Shown here: piece by piece, positions 34,405-46,006 of the stretch
Numbering within the stretch: the stretch's first letter is position 1
Layout: each line of letters begins with the position of its first letter
From: Prolixibacteraceae bacterium
GTDB lineage: Bacteria; Bacteroidota; Bacteroidia; Bacteroidales; Prolixibacteraceae
Assembly (NCBI GenBank): GCA_019459525.1
Contig: JAIBEY010000066.1
Coordinates: 62,001-126,000 of the forward strand
Reading direction: 5' to 3'
DNA length: 64,000 nucleotides
The notes under the pieces: model-generated
Database searches by the model: none
Told to the model about the DNA's origin: nothing
What the model saw: only the letters and a program-made list of their open reading frames with translations
Translations under genes and position numbers: made by a program

Positions 34405-36198
34405 ATGAAAAAGATATTTTTAATTACCGTCTTATTTTCGACGCTCACCTTTTCGGCCTGTGTTGATCTCGACCTTAACCCCTTGTCTGAAGGATCCAGC
34501 GGAAATTGGTACTCAACACAACAGGAGATAGAAATGTCGGTAAACGATTTTTACCGACCTGAATTTTTCCCCATCGACGATATGGCCTGGGGTGATGACG
34601 TAACTGCTCGTAATTCTACCTCGGTTGTACAGAATGGGACAATGACTGCAGAAGACGGCACCGTAGGTGGTCGCTGGCAAAATTACTATAAAGGCATCGC
34701 TCGCGCATTGCGACTGCTGAATAATATGGACAACGCACGTACCTTAGGGGTATCCGAAGCAAAGATCACGCAATACGAAGGTGAAGCTTACTTTTATTTG
34801 GGTTACGCTTACGGCATGTTGGCGTTCCACTGGGGTGATGCCATTCTTGACAAAGTAGGCATGACGATTGACGAGGCCTACAAGATACCGCGTTCGCCTA
34901 AAGCCGATGTGCTGGCGTACAGTTACGAATGTCTGGATAAAGCTGCCGAGCGCCTGCCCACCAGCTACTCGGGCATACAGCGTGCTACGAAAGGCGCCGC
35001 TCTTGCATTCAAGGCCCGAATTGCCCTCAGAAACGGTGATTACGAAACGGCTGCAACGGCTGCAAAAGCCTGTATGGATCTGAACGTCTATAAACTACAC
35101 AGCAATTACCGGAATTTGTTCACCGCTTCATGGTCGGACGAATGGATATTCTACTTTCGCGGCGATGTGACATTGAAAAAGTATTTCTGGGCTGCCGGCG
35201 ACGTACTCAACAGCATTGGCCGTCTTGCAGGAGGATGGGGTGGACAAAAGGCTCCCTCTTACGAATTGGTATGCGCCTACCCATGTATCGACGGTAAACC
35301 CATTGATGAATCGCCGCTCTACAACCCCAAAGACTTTTTCGAAAATCGCGACCCGCGTATGACCATGACCATCGTACCCTTCGCCACGGCACACAACAAG
35401 AGCGTTCTCGCCGGAACATATAAACCTCAGGATTATGTGTGGCTAGGTTATGAATATTCTCCTGCCCCGAACAAGACTACTGTTTTCCGTGCTTCCGATG
35501 GCGCGCAGGTAAGCAATACCGATTCGAAAGCCCGTGCCGAACACGCTTCTTACACCGGGTTACTGTTTAAGAAGTATATTGACAATACATTCCTCGAAAA
35601 TGGACGCTCTGGCGCACCCACCACCTATCCCATGTTGCGTTACGGCGATGTGCTGCTGATGTATGCCGAAGCCATGATCGAACTGGACAGATGTACGCAG
35701 GAAGTGTTAAACGTAACAATCAATAAATTGAGAGAGAGAGCCTACGCAGGGACAGGGATTACCTATCCGCAGGTTACACTTGGTAGCCAGGAAGCTATGC
35801 GCACGGTCGTTCGTACCGAACGTTTCATCGAGCTTGCCTGGGAAGGACATCGTTATGCCGATTTGATTCGTTGGAAACTTGCCGAAAAGGTTTACAATCG
35901 GCCAAGTTACTTCGTGCGCCGTGCATGGTCGGGATCAACCTCATGGAATGGCAACGAAGCTTCTGTATCAGCAGAATACCGCCAATTGATACAGAATTGG
36001 AAAGATGGAAACTACCCGATCGGAGGAACACCGCAGATTGATGAAAACGGCATAGCTGATCTCAGCTATATGGTTACTGCAGGTTATATCGTTGTGGCAA
36101 GCGAACGAAATTTCGATGCCGGACGCGACTACCTGTGGCCTGTACCTGATGCTGACCGTCTCATTAACGAAAATCTCGATCAGAACCCCAAGTGGTAA
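34405..36198 (+). CDS. SusD/RagB surface glycan-binding-type lipoprotein, PUL 1
   Basis: A 597-residue lipoprotein (lipobox TFSAC, Cys19) with the SusD-like N-terminal domain and TPR-rich core (YEGEAYFYLGYAYGMLAFHWGD, KADVLAYSYECLDKAAERLP) and the C-terminal RagB domain ending in the typical GRDYLWPVPDADRLINENLDQNPKW pattern. It forms the lid on the SusC barrel and selects the ligand. It lies 12 bp after susC. A 14-bp-stem terminator follows, which would lower expression of the genes downstream relative to susCD. Confidence 0.95.
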   Translation: MKKIFLITVLFSTLTFSACVDLDLNPLSEGSSGNWYSTQQEIEMSVNDFYRPEFFPIDDMAWGDDVTARNSTSVVQNGTMTAEDGTVGGRWQNYYKGIARALRLLNNMDNARTLGVSEAKITQYEGEAYFYLGYAYGMLAFHWGDAILDKVGMTIDEAYKIPRSPKADVLAYSYECLDKAAERLPTSYSGIQRATKGAALAFKARIALRNGDYETAATAAKACMDLNVYKLHSNYRNLFTASWSDEWIFYFRGDVTLKKYFWAAGDVLNSIGRLAGGWGGQKAPSYELVCAYPCIDGKPIDESPLYNPKDFFENRDPRMTMTIVPFATAHNKSVLAGTYKPQDYVWLGYEYSPAPNKTTVFRASDGAQVSNTDSKARAEHASYTGLLFKKYIDNTFLENGRSGAPTTYPMLRYGDVLLMYAEAMIELDRCTQEVLNVTINKLRERAYAGTGITYPQVTLGSQEAMRTVVRTERFIELAWEGHRYADLIRWKLAEKVYNRPSYFVRRAWSGSTSWNGNEASVSAEYRQLIQNWKDGNYPIGGTPQIDENGIADLSYMVTAGYIVVASERNFDAGRDYLWPVPDADRLINENLDQNPKW

Positions 36199-38874: not shown

Positions 38875-40743
38875 ATGTACAAATTAGTTCTTATTTCGCT
38901 AATGGCACTCTTCGGTGTCAGCGTTCAGGCGCAAAAAAAAATCCTCCTCGTCGAAGCCGAAAGTTTTGCAAAAAAAGGCGGCTGGGTGGTCGATCAGCAG
39001 TTTATGGACCAGATGGGCTCGCCGTTCCTGATGGCGCACGGAATGGGCATTCCGGTTAAAGATGCCTCAACAACGGTTCAGTTTCCGGAGAAGGGCAAAT
39101 ACCGCATGTTTGTACGAACCCGCAACTGGGCTGCTCGTTGGACCAATCAGGACGCTCCCGGGAAATTTCAGGTTTTAATCAACGGAAAAGCTACAGCTGC
39201 CGTTTTCGGAACCGAATCGATGGATTGGAGCTGGCAGGATGGCGGAGTGATCGACATCAGCAAAACCAAGTGCACCCTTGGATTGAAGGATTTAACCGGT
39301 TTTAATGGCCGTTGCGATGCGATTCTATTTTCTTCCGACCTCAATTTTACCCCACCTTCCGAAGTTAAAGAATTAGCCGAACTTCGCGGGAAGCTAAGTC
39401 CGGCAACCGTTCAGGTAAACGAAGCCGGGCAATTCGACCTCGTTGTAATTGGCGGTGGAATGGCCGGTACCTGTGCCGCTATTTCGGCAGCCCGCCTGGG
39501 CCTGAAAGTGGCGCTGGTACAGGATCGCCCGGTGTTGGGCGGGAACAACAGTTCCGAAGTTCGCGTTCATTTGGGCGGCCGCATCAACCTCGAGCCGTAT
39601 CCGAACCTGGGTAATCTGGTCAATGAAATTGGCCCGTCGAAAGAGGGAAATGCCCGTCCGTACGAAAATTACGAAGACGATAAAAAGATGGAAGCCGTCC
39701 GCAAAGAAAAGAACATCTCGCTGTTCCTGAATTGCCATGCCAACAAGGTAAACATGAAAGACGGTAAAATTGAAAGCGTTCAGGCAACTAACACCGAAAG
39801 CGGACAAAAACTGCTGTTTACAGCGCCGCTTTTTGCCGATTGCACCGGCGATGCCACCATTGGCGTGCTGGCAGGGGCCAAATACATGACTGGTCGCGAA
39901 AATTCGAAAGAGTTTGGCGAATCAACTGCTCCGGAAGAAGCCGACAACCTGACGATGGGATCGTCGGTTCAGTGGTTTGCCGAAGATAAAGCGGGCGCCG
40001 TTCCTTTTCCGGATATCAAATGGGGAATTGAATGGAATGAAGACAAAGCCGAACACCTGATTCGCGGCGACTGGAATTGGGAAACCGGCATGGGAATCGA
40101 CCAGGTAAATGAGTTTGAACGCATTCGCGATTACGGTTTGCTGGTGGTTTATTCCAACTGGTCGTTCCTGAAAAACCGTTCGATCGACAAAGGCAAATTT
40201 GAAAAGCGCCAGTTAAAATGGGTGGCCTACATTGCCGGGAAACGCGAATCAAAGCGTCTGGTGGGCGATTACATTCTTCGTGAGTCAGACCTGGTCGATC
40301 ACAAGGTTTATCCCGACGGAACAGCCCCAACTTCGTGGACCATCGATTTGCATTATCCCGATCCTGAAAACACCAAACAGTTCCCCGGCAAAGAGTTTAA
40401 ATCCATTGCCGTGCACAAACCAATTATTCCCTACCCCATTCCGTTCCGTTGCCTGTATTCGGCTAATGTACCCAATCTGCTAATGGCCGGACGCAACATT
40501 AGCGTTTCGCATGTGGCACTGGGAACAGTTCGCGTTATGCGCACAACAGGTATGATGGGCGAGGTGATTGGCATGGCCGCTTCGGTTTGCAAACAGCACA
40601 ACACCGATCCGCGAGGCGTTTACACCAACCATTTGGAAGACCTGATTCAACTCATGCGAAAAGGCACCGGCAATCCGGAATTGCCCAAAATCCAGAATTA
40701 CAACATGGGAAGTACGTTGCTGGGCAAACAACCACAACATTAA
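38875..40743 (+). CDS. FAD-dependent oxidoreductase with N-terminal beta domain (PUL 1)
   Basis: A 622-residue exported protein: signal peptide (about 1-19), a beta-rich domain of about 150 residues (KYRMFVRTRNWAARWTN, typical of a carbohydrate-binding-like jelly roll), then an FAD_oxidored-type Rossmann domain with LVVIGGGMAGTCAAISAARL (about 189-208), GGNNSSEVRVHLGGR and FADCTGDATIGVLAGA, and the closing MAGRNISVSHVALGTVRVM. Such enzymes recur in Bacteroidota sugar loci and probably oxidise or rearrange a carbohydrate or uronate-like substrate; the substrate is unknown. It is the last gene of PUL 1, before a 19-bp-stem terminator. Confidence 0.85.
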   Translation: MYKLVLISLMALFGVSVQAQKKILLVEAESFAKKGGWVVDQQFMDQMGSPFLMAHGMGIPVKDASTTVQFPEKGKYRMFVRTRNWAARWTNQDAPGKFQVLINGKATAAVFGTESMDWSWQDGGVIDISKTKCTLGLKDLTGFNGRCDAILFSSDLNFTPPSEVKELAELRGKLSPATVQVNEAGQFDLVVIGGGMAGTCAAISAARLGLKVALVQDRPVLGGNNSSEVRVHLGGRINLEPYPNLGNLVNEIGPSKEGNARPYENYEDDKKMEAVRKEKNISLFLNCHANKVNMKDGKIESVQATNTESGQKLLFTAPLFADCTGDATIGVLAGAKYMTGRENSKEFGESTAPEEADNLTMGSSVQWFAEDKAGAVPFPDIKWGIEWNEDKAEHLIRGDWNWETGMGIDQVNEFERIRDYGLLVVYSNWSFLKNRSIDKGKFEKRQLKWVAYIAGKRESKRLVGDYILRESDLVDHKVYPDGTAPTSWTIDLHYPDPENTKQFPGKEFKSIAVHKPIIPYPIPFRCLYSANVPNLLMAGRNISVSHVALGTVRVMRTTGMMGEVIGMAASVCKQHNTDPRGVYTNHLEDLIQLMRKGTGNPELPKIQNYNMGSTLLGKQPQH

Positions 40744-40756
40744 AAATTTTCGAAAT

Positions 40757-40804
40757 AAAACCCACAAAGGGCAGCGGAGAAATCGGCTGCCCTTTGTGGG
40801 TTTT
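40757..40804. terminator. Long perfect hairpin terminator after PUL 1
   Basis: A 19-bp perfect stem (40757-40775 with 40786-40804, AAAACCCACAAAGGGCAGC) with a 10-base loop; T-runs on both strands make it bidirectional. It can end PUL 1 transcripts and those of the convergent reverse transcriptase operon. Confidence 0.88.
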
Positions 40805-40813
40805 GAGAAATAG

Positions 40814-40843
40814 AAAAGGTAGCTAAATCCTCCGCTACCTTTT
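40814..40843. terminator. Second hairpin, next to the DRT3 operon end
   Basis: A 10-bp perfect stem (AAAAGGTAGC 40814-40823 with 40834-40843), again with a 10-base loop. It is likely the terminator of the minus-strand reverse transcriptase operon, whose transcript would run into TTTTCTATTTCTC. Confidence 0.7.
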
Positions 40844-40948
40844 CATCTTTGTCCTCATTTTACCGAGTGATGCCGCTGCAAGTGTGTGAAAATAATCCAT
40901 CAATCTCCTAAAAAAATGATAGACCTGAGGATTGGCATTGGCAATATT
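40844..40948 (-). ncRNA. Possible DRT3-associated RNA segment downstream of drt3b
   Basis: These 105 bases between the drt3b stop and the hairpin terminator hold no convincing gene. On the minus strand they contain CACACAC (40888-40882) and a 7-base word AATCCTC (40936-40930) that can pair with GAGGATT in the loop of the 40814-40843 hairpin. DRT3 systems are reported to use an associated ncRNA with an AC-repeat template; this is the only AC repeat next to the operon. Weak evidence. Confidence 0.25.
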
Positions 40949-43141
40949 TTATGAATATACTTCCAGACTTTTTTTTGCATTTAGTTCTTTCTCAAGATTG
41001 AAATTGCTCCATTTTGTAAACCAATATTTTTGATAATTTTTAATAAAACTTATTATATTTCTGGTATCCAGACTAGTTTGAATCTCATCATAATCCGAGA
41101 AATTCTTACGATAAGTTTTAAGAATCTGCTCTTTATATGTCGTATCGATAAATGGACATGCCAACAAATCTAATATTAAATGAGAAAGTTCAGATGATTT
41201 TCTTCTTTTTTCTACTGGAATGGATTCAATGTGGGATAATATATATATCATAAGTTTACTTTTCAATGTAGTATATTTACTTGAATTCCCAATGTAAAAC
41301 AATACAACGACTATAGAGAAATAGTTGAAGTTACACTCTTCAAAATCAATCTCATTATTCTTATTCAGAACATTGAGATATTTAGCCAATAATTTTTCAG
41401 TCAAACGAAAATCCTTATCCAAGTCCCTTAATACTATTAATAAATAAAGAGATTCAACCTGTGTGTAATCATTTAGCGTGTTTTTATTTAAAATGAATGT
41501 GACTTCATCCAATATCTTCTTAAATACTTTTTCCTGATTATTTCTTGAATGCTGAGGAATTAATTTATTCTCATTATTGCGATATCGTTTTTTATAAAAC
41601 AGGATAAATTTTGAAAGTATGTGACTTACTTTAATCGTGGAGTTAACTCTTGGCGAAACAGAATAAAGGAAAAAAAGAAAATCAATAAAATTAACGATGT
41701 GGTCAGTAATCTCTTTTTCTACCTTTTGCTTTTTCAGTAAACCTTCGTTGTCAAGTTTTCCGTCAGATTCAAGGTCATTGCACTCTTTTAGGAATTTTGA
41801 TGCCATCTTTAAGTTTTTGCCTACTTTATTATGAAGGATGGCCAACGTATAGTTTAGTACATCTTTATAATCGACACCTGTTTCTTTTATTATTATTTTG
41901 TACTGAGTTGCTAATTTATTCGAATCGAAATAGAATTTAAGCATGTAATCTGCAAAAAGGAGTGAGCCTTCTTCACTATCAATATTATTAGAGGCAACCT
42001 CTTTTTTCTTTTCTATTTGAAATCGTGGTTCATTCTCGAATAACTTGATAATTCTCTCTTTCGCAACAGTTATTTCTGTTATTATAGGCTTTTTATAATC
42101 TTTGGATTTCGAATTGTTTATTGCTAATTTAAACTCTTTTAGTTCATGGCGAAACAATTGAATTACTTCCTCTTTTATCAAATCAGAATCACAGAATAAA
42201 AAATAATCATCAACATAACGGTATAATTCGTAATGCTTTTTAAGAACGTATCCTTTATCTATCAGTTTGTTTTCTATATTCTTATCAATTCGTTGAAGTA
42301 TAATCTCTGCAAAGATTCTTGAAAACTCAGGACCAATTACAATTCCGTTGGTTTCACCATAATTGGCATATTGAATAAATAAATCAAATTTTCCGGCAAA
42401 GGTCTTTTTTGACTCATCAACGTTTTCTTTTACAGATTCAAGTCCCAGAACAGCCCAGACAATTGAGTGGGTATATATGCTATCAAAGCATTTTGATAAA
42501 TCAAACTTATATAGAAAATTATATTTTTTTTCTGCCCGCTGATATCTATAATCTTCATAAAATCGATAGATATTTTTGTACTTTTCAATTGAAAAAAAAG
42601 TTTTAAGGTTTTCATATTCAACTCCTTCAGAACTGAAACCATATTTCTCTTCCTCTTTTAACTGCGCTGCGATATTGGATTGGGTAAATGTATATTTACC
42701 AATACCTGCCGGTTTTCGTATACTGAAATTGCTTATCGAACAGTAATATAAAATCAATTCTTTATAAACATTATAGAAATCGATTAGTCTTAATTGATTT
42801 ATTGGGTGAATAATAGTTAATTCTCTGAAATCTTTTTCTTTGTGAGTAATTTTAAATGGAAATGGGATTTTTCTGAAATTCCAGTCTTGCAATTCAATGG
42901 GCGAACTATTTATATCTTTTATTCCAAATAAAATCTCCAATATTAGCTTAAAAGCTTCTGCATCTACCCCTTGTAATAAGTTCTGATAGAAAAGTTTATT
43001 ATTTATAATCTCGATATTATTAGAAACCAAAAAACGATAGAAATATCTATTGGAAAAAGTAATCGGTATTTCATAAGGAAGAACATCGGCAAGGATCGCT
43101 CTCTCTTTGGGGTATTTGATGAGTTTTTTTTTCTTATTCAT
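40949..43141 (-). CDS. drt3b: Antiviral reverse transcriptase Drt3b (UG8 type)
   Basis: A 730-residue protein. The RT core is in about 100-350: motif A FLYKFDLSKCFDSIY (Asp214), motif B-like NGIVIGPEFSRIFAE (265-279) and the catalytic YRYVDDYFLF (YVDD 309-312), all intact. The N-terminus (ERAILADVLPYEIPITFSNRYFYRFL) matches the Drt3b family, and a long helical C-terminal region (about 370-730) has no nuclease motif that I can see. It overlaps drt3a by 8 bp, the expected DRT3 gene order. The product should work with Drt3a in anti-phage DNA synthesis. Base composition is far more AT-rich than the flanking PULs. Confidence 0.85.
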   Translation of the reverse strand: MNKKKKLIKYPKERAILADVLPYEIPITFSNRYFYRFLVSNNIEIINNKLFYQNLLQGVDAEAFKLILEILFGIKDINSSPIELQDWNFRKIPFPFKITHKEKDFRELTIIHPINQLRLIDFYNVYKELILYYCSISNFSIRKPAGIGKYTFTQSNIAAQLKEEEKYGFSSEGVEYENLKTFFSIEKYKNIYRFYEDYRYQRAEKKYNFLYKFDLSKCFDSIYTHSIVWAVLGLESVKENVDESKKTFAGKFDLFIQYANYGETNGIVIGPEFSRIFAEIILQRIDKNIENKLIDKGYVLKKHYELYRYVDDYFLFCDSDLIKEEVIQLFRHELKEFKLAINNSKSKDYKKPIITEITVAKERIIKLFENEPRFQIEKKKEVASNNIDSEEGSLLFADYMLKFYFDSNKLATQYKIIIKETGVDYKDVLNYTLAILHNKVGKNLKMASKFLKECNDLESDGKLDNEGLLKKQKVEKEITDHIVNFIDFLFFLYSVSPRVNSTIKVSHILSKFILFYKKRYRNNENKLIPQHSRNNQEKVFKKILDEVTFILNKNTLNDYTQVESLYLLIVLRDLDKDFRLTEKLLAKYLNVLNKNNEIDFEECNFNYFSIVVVLFYIGNSSKYTTLKSKLMIYILSHIESIPVEKRRKSSELSHLILDLLACPFIDTTYKEQILKTYRKNFSDYDEIQTSLDTRNIISFIKNYQKYWFTKWSNFNLEKELNAKKSLEVYS

Positions 43142-44627
43142 CCTTCCAGATTGATTTTATGATTTCAAACTTTGAGATAGTGCGACCGTACTTTTGGCTG
43201 TAAAAATCCCTTTCTTTTTGAGACAAACTAAAACTGTAGAAATACTTCTCTTTGTTAAAAAAGCCCTTTTCAAAATTGAAATTATCTAATATATGTTTCT
43301 TTAATGCTACTCTATTTAAAAATACGGGGACTGCGATATTATCAACTGCATTTTCTAATTCTTCATTCAATCTTTTCAAACTCAGTAAATTTGACTTTTT
43401 TAAACTTTCCAGATCACCATCTGTGTTAAGTGATAAAAGTGAATTTGAATAAAATATACCTGATTTTATTTGTTTTTTATTATGGAGTAAATGGAAATTT
43501 CCAGTAAGAAATTTTAAACGATCACTCAGATGGTTACGTGCTCTTTTTTCATTCTTCGGAGCGAATTTATTGTAGAAATCTATTGATCTAATTATTCTCT
43601 TTTTGTATTTATTCAATTTATGATCAGATAATTCAATCTTAACAGTAAATCTCTTTTTACCAGTCCTGTCTATTTGAAATTTATAGCCCAAGAAGGTTAG
43701 TGTTTCATTAAATGGAGTATCTGCCAATAAGTTCGTTTCATAAGTTTTACATTCTTTACCATTTTGCCCTTCATTTAGTTGTAATTGATTTTCTGTAATG
43801 ATCGTTCTAACTTTACTTAGGTAATCAACTTTTGAGCTAACGGTTTTGGGAGTGAAAATCATAATAATATCATCAACATAACGAGCATAGTAGGTCAAGT
43901 CTTGAATGTTTTTGATTTCATTATCAATGTCCCTCATGAAAAGTTCCGATAAATAGGCACTGATTCCAATTCCTCTTGGAATGCCAGCTCCTAATGGAAT
44001 CTTGCTAATATCTTTTTTGTTCTCAAATTCATAAAAAAGCTTACGAATTAACTTCTTTGAGTGTGGTGAAAGTAAAATATTATTGTTAATCTTTTCAAAT
44101 AGTATGTTTTGAGGAATACTTTCATAAAAGCTACTAATATCTGTCCTTATTACAATTTTAGGGAATCCGTCCGCTAACAAGTAATAAATTTGCCGAACAA
44201 TGTCATTTCTACTTGACTGTTTGACTTTAAAAGTCTTCTTAATGTTGTATTGCAATTGTTTAATGGCATAAAAGGAAGTTGCATTATTTGAGTTGATAGT
44301 GAAAATTTCAATATCTGAATTATACTTGATATTAAATTGAAAACTATTTTCAGCGACACTCTCAGCTATCTTTTTAAATTCGTTTAAACGAATTTCTTCC
44401 TTTCCTTGATTGATCTTTTCAAGCTTCTCTGCAAATTGGTTATATTCTTCTTTTGATAAATTCCCTTTTTCTGTTTTTAACCATTTCTTTTCTGCTAATA
44501 TTTCTTTAAACTCTTCATGTTTAGCAAGATATTCATCGTTGATATACCCCCGATTAATGTTCCCTTTCTTATTTTCTGAAACAAAAATTTTATTGAAGTT
44601 GTAGTAAGAAAAGGATTGATCCAGCAT
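43134..44627 (-). CDS. drt3a: Antiviral reverse transcriptase Drt3a (UG3 type)
   Basis: A 497-residue reverse transcriptase. The N-terminus MLDQSFSYYNFNKIF is typical of Drt3a. Motif A is IRTDISSFYESIP (Asp163), motif B-like PLGAGIPRGIGISAYLSELF (211-230) and motif C YARYVDDIIMIF (YVDD 250-253), so the active site is complete. The motif D region TFLGYKFQID follows near 311-320. It is the first gene of the two-gene DRT3 operon and overlaps drt3b by 8 bp. The known role of DRT3 is defence against phages by synthesis of DNA by the RT pair. AT-rich composition and a site between two PULs point to horizontal gain. Confidence 0.88.
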   Translation of the reverse strand: MLDQSFSYYNFNKIFVSENKKGNINRGYINDEYLAKHEEFKEILAEKKWLKTEKGNLSKEEYNQFAEKLEKINQGKEEIRLNEFKKIAESVAENSFQFNIKYNSDIEIFTINSNNATSFYAIKQLQYNIKKTFKVKQSSRNDIVRQIYYLLADGFPKIVIRTDISSFYESIPQNILFEKINNNILLSPHSKKLIRKLFYEFENKKDISKIPLGAGIPRGIGISAYLSELFMRDIDNEIKNIQDLTYYARYVDDIIMIFTPKTVSSKVDYLSKVRTIITENQLQLNEGQNGKECKTYETNLLADTPFNETLTFLGYKFQIDRTGKKRFTVKIELSDHKLNKYKKRIIRSIDFYNKFAPKNEKRARNHLSDRLKFLTGNFHLLHNKKQIKSGIFYSNSLLSLNTDGDLESLKKSNLLSLKRLNEELENAVDNIAVPVFLNRVALKKHILDNFNFEKGFFNKEKYFYSFSLSQKERDFYSQKYGRTISKFEIIKSIWKDE

Positions 44628-44723
44628 GGGAATTTAAAATTGAGTTTAGACTTAAAATCATAAATATACAAAGTTCTTCAACTCAATAATCGTATTGTTA
44701 AAAACTTCTGAATAGTAATATGT

Positions 44724-44755
44724 CTAAATGGTGTTTAAACCCACCTACTATTTAG
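44724..44755. repeat. Imperfect palindrome in the drt3a-sigma divergent gap
   Basis: CTAAAT (44724-44729) pairs with ATTTAG (44750-44755), with inner GGTG/CACC and a TTTAAA centre. It lies about midway between the two divergent starts and could be an operator or an RNA hairpin. Confidence 0.4.
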
Positions 44756-44785
44756 AAAAATTTTAAACGGGAATATTTTAATTAA

Positions 44786-45409
44786 ATGCTTTTATTTGCT
44801 GTTCGCAATCTGAATATTCCGGGAATGACGGACATCAACCTCCATAGTAGCATTAACGAAAAACAGCTTTTCAACGATTTTCAGCACGGAAGTCAGGAAA
44901 TCTTTGACTATTTTTTCGGGAAATATTACCCGGGTTTGTGTGTGTATGCTTACCGGATACTTAAATCGAATACCGAAGCCGAAGATCTGGTTCAGGACTT
45001 TTTTGTGCGGCTACTCGAAAACCGGAAAAATGTAAGAATTGAAAGCAGCATCAAATCGTATTTTATCCGTTCCATTCACAACCGTTGCCTCGATTATATC
45101 GCCCATCAAAAAGTAGTGAGCACCCACGAAAGTTATCGATTAAGAATAATGACTGAAGAAGATTTTCAGGACTACCCCTTACTCGATAACGAACTCCGCC
45201 AGCAAATTGACCGGGCCATCAGCAACCTGCCCGACGGCATTCGCGAAACGTTTATCCTCAACCGCTTTGAGGGACTGAGCTACCAGGAAATAGCCAGCCG
45301 CGAAAATTTATCGGTAAAAACCATTGAATACCGCATCAGCAAAGCATTGGCACAACTGCGTAAAGACTTGGGCGAGTACCTTCCGTTGCTGCTTTTATTG
45401 GTCAAATAA
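44786..45409 (+). CDS. ECF sigma factor of PUL 2
   Basis: A 207-residue sigma-70 family protein from the first ATG; an in-frame ATG at 44825 (MTDINLHSS) would give 194 residues and is as likely, because sigma homology begins after it. Region 2 carries NTEAEDLVQDFFVRLLEN and region 4 LPDGIRETFILNRFEGLSYQEIASRENLSVKTIEYRI-type text. It is separated from its fecR partner by about 600 bp of hairpin-rich DNA, unlike the tight spacing in PUL 1, so that stretch has probably been enlarged by repeats. Confidence 0.92.
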   Translation: MLLFAVRNLNIPGMTDINLHSSINEKQLFNDFQHGSQEIFDYFFGKYYPGLCVYAYRILKSNTEAEDLVQDFFVRLLENRKNVRIESSIKSYFIRSIHNRCLDYIAHQKVVSTHESYRLRIMTEEDFQDYPLLDNELRQQIDRAISNLPDGIRETFILNRFEGLSYQEIASRENLSVKTIEYRISKALAQLRKDLGEYLPLLLLLVK

Positions 45410-45446
45410 ATTTCGGAATTATCGGATATATGGTTGATTTGAATAG

Positions 45447-45570
45447 CAACGGCATTTATGCCGTTGAAAGATGAATAATTCGTATTTTGGCTTTAGCCTA
45501 AACATTCAATTATTTCGGCTAAAGCCGGGATTTGACTGTTTCTCATTTTCCCCAGACCTAAAGGTCGGGG
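45447..45570. repeat. Cluster of three perfect or near-perfect hairpins
   Basis: CAACGGCAT-TT-ATGCCGTTG (45447-45466), GGCTTTAGCC (45489-45498) with GGCTAAAGCC (45517-45526), and CCCC-A-GACCT (45550-45559) with AGGTCGGGG (45562-45570). They occupy the start of the ~600-bp sigma-fecR gap, which has no credible gene. Confidence 0.75.
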
Positions 45571-45722
45571 CTATTCATAACCTATAAACCTATAATTCCG
45601 ATAAATTCTAATGAGTGCCCGTTATTTTACCTAAAATGTGAAAGCCCTTCGATGTCGGACTGGCCTAAGCCGATGAGCCGAAAAACAAGTGAAGACGGCG
45701 TTAAAAAATCTTTTCTGTTTGA

Positions 45723-45893
45723 TCCCGGTGAAACCGGGAGAGTTTATCCCGGTTTTACCGGGAAGCCATCGAACGCTGGTTTTTCGAGCGAAGCGGATTC
45801 AGCCTTGACTTTTTTTGATTCCTTTTTTGTTGGATGGTGAGCCTGTCGAACCAGTCAAGGCAAAAAAGGAATTAGGGTTTGGGGCAAAGCCCC
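45723..45893. repeat. Composite inverted-repeat element in the sigma-fecR gap
   Basis: Two copies of TCCCGGT-N3-ACCGGGA (45723-45739, 45747-45763), then GCCTTGAC (45802-45809) with GTCAAGGC (45854-45861), ATTCCTTTTTT (45818-45828) with AAAAAAGGAAT (45862-45872), and GGGGC-AAA-GCCCC (45881-45893). The two middle pairs interleave instead of nesting. A 62-codon ORF across part of it is not taken as a gene. Confidence 0.7.
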
Positions 45894-46006
45894 ATCAAGC
45901 AGATCAATTTGGTAAACAACCGGATATTCAAATAAATTTTTACCTTTTTTTATCATTCGTTTTAGGGTGAAGCCCAACTTCGCCGTCATACCTGTGAAAT
46001 AAATTT

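Follow-up and report, generated by a model that had tools for sequence, protein, structure and literature searches.

A two-reverse-transcriptase locus of a Prolixibacteraceae bacterium as a probable DRT3 system of a compact-RNA branch

The locus and its conserved parts

What do two overlapping genes for reverse transcriptases (RTs), set among carbohydrate genes, do for a Prolixibacteraceae bacterium? The question is raised by a locus in the 64,000-nucleotide (nt) stretch of DNA analysed here (assembly GCA_019459525.1, contig JAIBEY010000066.1, positions 62,001 to 126,000; "the window" below), which an earlier annotation from the letters alone, called here the sequence-only reading, had taken for a type 3 DRT (DRT3) system with the proteins Drt3a and Drt3b. 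Our analysis indicates that the locus is very likely a complete, probably working DRT3 abortive-infection system, belonging to a branch of the family with a compact RNA. The observed basis of this reading is the genes, the template, the gate residues, the covariation of the RNA across the branch, and the branch structure itself.

As described in the main text of PMC13174585, DRT3 of Escherichia coli (EcoDRT3) consists of two RTs and an RNA that is encoded downstream of drt3b and holds the template 5'-ACACAC-3'. Drt3a copies this template into poly(dT-dG), and Drt3b makes poly(dC-dA) without a template, by means of residues E22 and R241, starting on Y666. The duplex is toxic unless it is removed by RecBCD, with RecBCD as the guard in abortive infection. 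The features of the window that bear on such a system are the following.

43134-44627, minus strand: drt3a, 497 amino acids (aa), Class 2 (UG3) RT, RNA-templated; residues ~20-73 are the branch-specific insert
40949-43141, minus strand: drt3b, 730 aa, Class 1 (UG8) RT, predicted to be protein-templated and primed on Tyr729
~40811-40948, minus strand: DRT3 non-coding RNA (ncRNA), ~138 nt with both ends inferred, directly downstream of drt3b
40882-40888, minus strand: template CACACAC for poly(dT-dG), starting at +61 after the drt3b stop codon
40935-40943, minus strand: 5' strand of helix P1 (TGCC-AA-TGC), which encloses the template
40871-40879, minus strand: 3' strand of P1 (GCA-GC-GGCA)
40927-40933, minus strand: 5' strand of the pseudoknot, AAUCCUC
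40826-40832, minus strand: 3' strand of the pseudoknot, GAGGAUU, within the P3 loop
40813-40844, minus strand: P3, a terminator-like hairpin with the 3' pseudoknot strand in its loop
44628-44785, minus strand: 158-bp divergent intergenic region between drt3a and a sigma-factor gene, the presumed place of the drt3a promoter

In the list of open reading frames (ORFs), drt3a comes immediately before drt3b on the same strand with an 8-nt overlap, exactly as the sequence-only reading had given it, and the YVDD active site that it reported for both RTs is intact in the alignments. The profile search that it had proposed gave 362.3 bits for Drt3a with NCBIfam NF041747 (curated cut-off 200) and 702 bits for Drt3b with NF041748 (curated cut-off 350), and PADLOC agreed (4.6e-102 for Drt3a and 1.5e-188 for Drt3b, the remaining families being far weaker). 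On these profile scores the locus is confirmed as a real DRT3 with both proteins in the order Drt3a-Drt3b. The same reading had called the system complete; this holds for the protein set, but the RNA component, which is also required in the published system, was present and had been overlooked. EcoDRT3 (Drt3a 398 aa, Drt3b 667 aa) resembles the window locus in both RT families, in the downstream ACACAC RNA, in the gate residues and in a C-terminal priming Tyr (PMC13174585). The proteins of the DRT3 complex in PDB 9z6y/9z6z (Drt3a 426 aa, Drt3b 650 aa; Deng et al. 2026, as cited in PMC13174585 and PMC13314766) are also sequence relatives of the window proteins (4.4e-27 and 8e-58, respectively). 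Ten more proteins of the window had no PADLOC match at 1e-10.

Relatives of Drt3b were collected from plasmids (8 regions), whole genomes, genome_contigs (the best 80 of 569) and viral_contigs (48 loci); a first scan of genome_contigs with a single protein as query had found no relative. Loci with a Drt3b of at least 250 bits, scored by a profile from 12 members, numbered 120 after removal of L001, a duplicate of the window; L169 and L170 were retained though their Drt3b is identical to that of L044 and L065, respectively. The proportions of the compact and long branches described below are biased in this sample, because the 80 kept of the 569 relatives were the best by likeness to the window. 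Above the cut-off were 5 of 395 whole genomes of the phylum and 5 of 393 of the order, the window's own genome being in both counts.

In 117 of the 120 loci, ACACAC is found no more than 400 nt past the end of drt3b; on the other strand it occurs in one, and the chance rate, from shuffled stretches of the 93 compact-branch loci, was 385/4650. The three loci that lack it are L007, which is divergent, L079, which has CACACA at the expected place, and L137, with a truncated Drt3b ORF. L007 and L206 stand for one divergent locus, in which a third gene accompanies the two RTs and ACACAC is missing from their vicinity. In L206 (7130-12646, in a genome of the phylum), PADLOC scores are 239 bits (Drt3a-like) and 386 bits (Drt3b-like), the gate residues are kept, and the RT pair is followed after 77 nt by a protein of 738 aa whose radical SAM match is below threshold. 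In another locus, L033 on an E. coli plasmid (CP083496.1), drt3b is annotated as two ORFs and the downstream ACACAC stretch is present.

The residues which in E. coli stand in for a nucleic-acid template were located through PDB 26cz, probably the Drt3b of EcoDRT3 to judge from its tag, length and residue match. Its numbering offset (108 residues, SUMO tag) was derived by hand from an alignment that places E22, R71, F187, R241 and YVDD on identical letters. E. coli E22, R71, F187, R241, YVDD and Y666 thereby correspond to window E24, R106, F219, R275, 309-312 (Y309-D312) and Y729. The R275 and F219 columns are R and F in 120/120 loci. At E24 there are 110 E, six D, one R (L006, whose start is off its contig) and three gaps, and at R106 there are 116 R, one N (L039) and three gaps; these substitutions, together with gaps in fragments, are all the gate departures seen. 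A Tyr stands within the last five residues of Drt3b in 119/120 loci; the window protein ends in ...EVYS, and its Y729, of 730 residues, is invariant (12/12) in the 12-member alignment. As far as alignment tells, the residues for protein-templated, tyrosine-primed synthesis of poly(dC-dA) are kept in the window Drt3b. An altered template paired with altered gates, as for another dinucleotide product, occurred in none of the 120 loci.

Two branches of DRT3

A tree of 115 Drt3b sequences (quick method, with SH-aLRT as its only support), made without the duplicate L001 and the fragments L006, L033, L137, L141 and L142, sets 21 loci with a distant template apart from 93 others and the long-branched L007, a 99* branch holding the 93. 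The window groups with L040-L043 (100*), which are from Flavobacterium flabelliforme, a Bacteroidetes metagenome-assembled genome (MAG), Aquimarina aggregata and Arenibacter sp. and have a Drt3b 56-58% identical to that of the window in the best segment. A tree of 112 Drt3a sequences, taken from window residue 116 so that the insert is excluded, has the identical split but for one change (98*). The 93 loci make up the compact branch and the 21 loci the long branch.

The branches differ in the distance from the drt3b stop codon to ACACAC. This is +25 to +137 in the compact loci (median 42; at most 90 in 88 of 92, L079 having none), and +102 to +262 in the long-branch loci (median 147). In four compact-branch loci, namely L045 (Flavobacterium), L068 (a Prevotella MAG), and L106 and L114 (both Sphingobacterium), the leader in front of ACACAC is enlarged to 117-136 nt. 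Since these four of the 93 exceed 100 nt, the tree calls for at least four changes in template distance taken by itself, whereas for the Drt3a insert it calls for no such repeated change.

The length of the Drt3a N-terminus, measured as the residues before the conserved Arg140 (window numbering) in the 96 of 113 proteins with a readable start, is bimodal. All 18 measurable long-branch proteins have 90-93 residues there, and 77 of the 78 outside the 21 long-branch loci have 130-159 (window, 139). The exception is L137, with 92 residues, which the Drt3a tree places among the long-branch proteins and which had been labelled so beforehand. The extra residues are ~20-73 in the window protein, for which an AlphaFold2 model built from 73 sequences (mean pLDDT 95.1) has a helical hairpin (helices 31-54 and 59-92). 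The best Foldseek matches of this model were retron Eco8, DRT9, G2L4 and DRT2; 9z6y was not among the 50 matches listed (library to 2026-04-08). With its template at +61, not beyond 100 nt, and with the insert present, the window locus is not of the long branch.

The solved Drt3b chains, compared with three long-branch proteins and with the window as the sole compact-branch protein, score higher with the former. For 26cz the scores are 307, 304 and 336 bits with L126, L127 and L035, respectively, against 258.6 for the window, and for 9z6y they are 444, 536 and 284 bits against 199.5. From these scores the long branch appears to be the one whose members most resemble the solved chains, although EcoDRT3 itself is outside the trees. 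Compared with EcoDRT3, the window Drt3a carries an additional ~50-aa helical insert.

Judged by the two trees, DRT3 is split into two branches that are seen in both proteins. By the same sequence comparisons, the compact branch is marked by a template near drt3b, a covarying pseudoknot in the RNA (see below) and a ~50-aa helical insert at the Drt3a N-terminus, and the long branch by a longer leader and the lack of the insert.

The fold of the compact RNA

Thirty compact-branch RNAs, picked by eye from 90 listed, were aligned (A3) and their helices read by eye. The structure has P1 around the template, a hairpin before the template, a helix P2 and the terminator hairpin P3, the loop of which pairs with the strand just 3' of the P1 5' strand and so forms a pseudoknot. 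In A3, 85.2% of cells are paired, against 40.9-52.0% when the structure is slid; the pseudoknot helix reaches 93.3%. A covariance model without the pseudoknot (R1), run over 95 sources, matched 67 at E <=1; in 66 the match lies at the beginning of the sequence that follows drt3b, and in one (L032, E 0.41) it lies elsewhere. R1 matched none of 27 loci that were long-branch, fragmentary or odd (among them L079), and the evidence for the pseudoknot covers the compact-branch RNAs only.

In the R1 alignment of 65 distinct rows, 86.3% of cells are paired under the structure that includes the pseudoknot; shifting this structure by 1-3 columns lowers the share to 39.5-48.5% and the covariation score from 0.578 to 0.101-0.192. 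In the two blocks of the pseudoknot, pairing reaches 86.8% and 93.2%, and each of the 6 pairs varies on both sides, though the aligning model contained no pseudoknot. Among the 54 rows that have all 12 pseudoknot letters, 42 pair 6/6 and 49 pair at least 5, and 19 different letter pairs occur at 6/6. Examples of the letter pairs are CCGCUC/GAGCGG, CCGUCU/GGACGG, CAGUCC/GGACUG, UCAUUC/GAAUGA, UCGUGC/GCAUGA, UCACCC/GGGUGA and GCAUCC/GGAUGC. An automatic finder of the hairpin and pseudoknot chose a wrong hairpin in the window and several others (median rank 0.12, 25/99 at <=0.05) and was not used.

The window RNA belongs to a subgroup that is divergent. In its fold of minimum energy (-36.3 kcal/mol, z -2.35), both P1 and P3 are formed. 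A model made from L040-L043 only, with the window held out (R2), recovered 40815-40949 from the whole 64 kb at 104.6 bits (E 1.6e-17; the runner-up had 17 bits, E 0.6), although much of this score is due to sequence identity; the automatic consensus in R2 chose the pseudoknot helix. Like the window, L040-L043 have a compact RNA with a pseudoknot, but its letters differ in a compensatory way. The pairing is 7/7 in the window (AAUCCUC/GAGGAUU), in L041 (AAUCCCC/GGGGAUU) and in L042 and L043 (AAUCUCC/GGAGAUU), and 6/7 in L040; at two positions C-G is replaced by U-A, with both sides changed. These strands were chosen by eye with G-U allowed, so that loops exchanged among the five still pair 5-7/7. 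A run like that of the window arose in 749/5000 loop shuffles, an uninformative control, as a 10-mer has few dinucleotide-preserving shuffles.

P3 is absent from the list of the terminator scan because its 10-nt loop exceeds the 8-nt limit of that scan; around the locus, the promoter and terminator scans gave nothing above shuffles. Rfam at gathering scores found only tRNA in the whole window, and near the locus only matches under those scores. Compared with the E. coli-type RNA, that of the window is shorter and has the pseudoknot to the terminator loop. Neither "pseudoknot" nor "bacteroid" appears anywhere in the main text of PMC13174585, its figures being outside this count; the RNA model of that study was seeded with EcoDRT3-like loci (32 unique hits in the methods, 41 homologous systems in a legend).

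One possible explanation of the pseudoknot is that, in a locus whose genes and RNA are DRT3, it serves transcription termination or RNA stability and not the working ribonucleoprotein (RNP). The 3' strand does lie within the loop of a terminator-like hairpin, and a role in the RNP is putative. However, the 19 different letter pairs at 6/6 imply selection on the pairing itself, and a plain terminator has no need of pairing between its loop and the 5' end. We therefore regard this explanation as unlikely, though it survives better than any other, and prefer a pseudoknot that is part of the RNP.

Host, setting and predicted mechanism

The published guard finds no direct counterpart in this host. 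The genome is 99.99% complete and has no match to the RecC family, for which the E. coli control was positive (RecB, RecD and AddA were not searched for), and since RecC is lacking, the RecBCD guard cannot apply literally here; in this the host differs from that of EcoDRT3. The genome encodes a protein with a PDDEXK_1 nuclease domain in a 954-aa frame, which would be as expected of AddB, and a GreA/GreB-type protein. An AddAB-type enzyme may thus replace RecBCD as the guard. The same genome has a second defence-type RT (L002, C45:114488-117946), with AbiP2 as its best match (534.9 bits on a 400-aa stretch).

The locus stands out in base composition, G+C being 0.29-0.30 in the four 1-kb blocks of 41001-45000 and 0.42-0.52 in the five blocks on either side. 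By Pfam, the left neighbours are a FAD oxidoreductase (38875-40743) and a SusD (at 34405), and the right neighbours are an ECF sigma factor (44786), a FecR (46007) and a TonB-dependent SusC-type receptor (47164). The sequence-only reading saw here a clean insertion into a permissive gap and suggested a comparison with relatives lacking the island. The low G+C, the absence of a Drt3b match at 1e-60 from the 22 other genomes of the genus and a visible left junction agree with insertion: DNA homology with the FAD oxidoreductase gene (91% identity in G794, 89% in G803) stops at window 40801 and 40746, respectively, and other genes follow. However, none of the relative stretches compared has the two flanks side by side, so that a clean insertion is only partly supported and its empty site putative; the sigma/FecR homologues are located elsewhere, in G784 and G799, with homology from 44844 and other genes upstream. 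The palindrome at 40757-40804, almost wholly inside the G794 homology, probably belongs to the flank, and the hairpin at 40813-40844 to the island. Among the 20 of 25 repeat families listed, no direct repeats join the two borders. Between the sigma and FecR genes, ~535 bp (45397-45932) have no counterpart in the sigma/FecR pairs of two relatives and are made of elements that recur across the genome (46 matches there, counting itself).

Several observations weigh against a working system of the kind proposed. The system is found in 1/23 genomes of the genus, and because of this, vertical conservation says nothing for its use. The host lacks an intact RecBCD, which is central to the published trigger. 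On the side of the RNA, the 5' and 3' ends are guesses; R1 at E 1 with default filters matched neither the window nor 27 others of the 95 sources, among them L040 and many Prevotella-like loci, and with the filters off it gave the window only 12.3 bits at 40810-40941 (E 0.011, the best of 5 kb). A 7-bp Watson-Crick run like the window pseudoknot arose in 70/5000 leader shuffles. Across the branch, L033, L076, L080 and L081 have an unaligned loop in which no pseudoknot was seen, several low-scoring Bacteroidota rows are likewise unaligned at this place, and L048 and L051 pair only 2/6. Finally, the correlation of leader length with Drt3a N-terminal length (rho -0.65, n 94) is not independent evidence, because the supposed exchange of RNA leader for insert is backed by just one branch of the tree.

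Some of these points would also suit a decaying or silent DRT3 remnant, carried as island cargo and no longer protective. The low G+C, the absence from the other 22 genomes and the host without a RecC match all favour such a remnant, but the ORFs are intact, the catalytic and gate residues, the template and the RNA helices are kept, and they are kept even though Drt3b shares no more than 56-61% identity with its closest relatives. We consider a remnant improbable. That the pair is a two-RT relative other than DRT3 (a group II intron, a retron or an AbiP2/DRT4-type pair) has next to no probability, as generic RT profiles match too but the lead of the Drt3a and Drt3b models amounts to hundreds of bits, TIGR04416 for group II introns gives 66.7 and 41.4 bits (Drt3a and Drt3b) with a cut-off of 300, contrary to the best hit that the sequence-only reading had named as decisive against it, and the RNA template and priming Tyr are both in place.

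The preferred reading, a working DRT3 of the compact branch, implies that the mode of action is most likely the one published for the E. coli system. The downstream RNA would fold so that P1 closes a multiloop holding the CACACAC template and the pseudoknot clamps this to the terminator hairpin; Drt3a would bind the RNA and copy the template repeatedly into poly(dT-dG). Drt3b would extend poly(dC-dA) from Tyr729 with no nucleic-acid template, Glu24 and Arg275 enforcing the alternation, and the two strands would anneal into a duplex. When a phage disables the host exonuclease that clears it, the duplex would accumulate and cell growth would stop. The products, the priming, the toxicity of the double-stranded DNA and the RecBCD guard in this scheme are taken over from PMC13174585 by analogy. 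The Drt3a helical hairpin (31-54, 59-92) probably does the work of the longer E. coli-type RNA leader, and the pseudoknot may hold the template in place. A comparable case is DRT10, in which an RT also makes tandem-repeat DNA on a short ncRNA template and which its authors likened to telomerase; according to the text of PMC12632851, it differs from the window system in having a single RT with a SLATT protein, another RNA and another position of the RNA gene.

We give about even chances to a broader proposal: that two DRT3 architectures separated once, in both enzymes, and that the one in the window swaps the long leader for the Drt3a hairpin, uses a pseudoknot to clamp a telomerase-like template to the terminator of the same RNA, and functions where the host has no RecBCD, which would leave the part of the guard to a different exonuclease, of the AddAB type. 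The architecture of the window RNA and Drt3a appears new, and the predicted chemistry is unchanged; no bench study of the compact branch was found in the literature searched, and an earlier description is possible.

In DRT3 a DNA sequence is dictated by a protein instead of a nucleic acid; the mechanistic work consulted concerns an E. coli system (PMC13174585). The compact branch would be a second natural design of one machine, with the template, the gates and the priming Tyr as its fixed parts and with an RNA leader or a protein arm as exchangeable ones. It offers a pseudoknot that is open to swap mutations, and a host without RecC in which the RecBCD-guard model may be tested.

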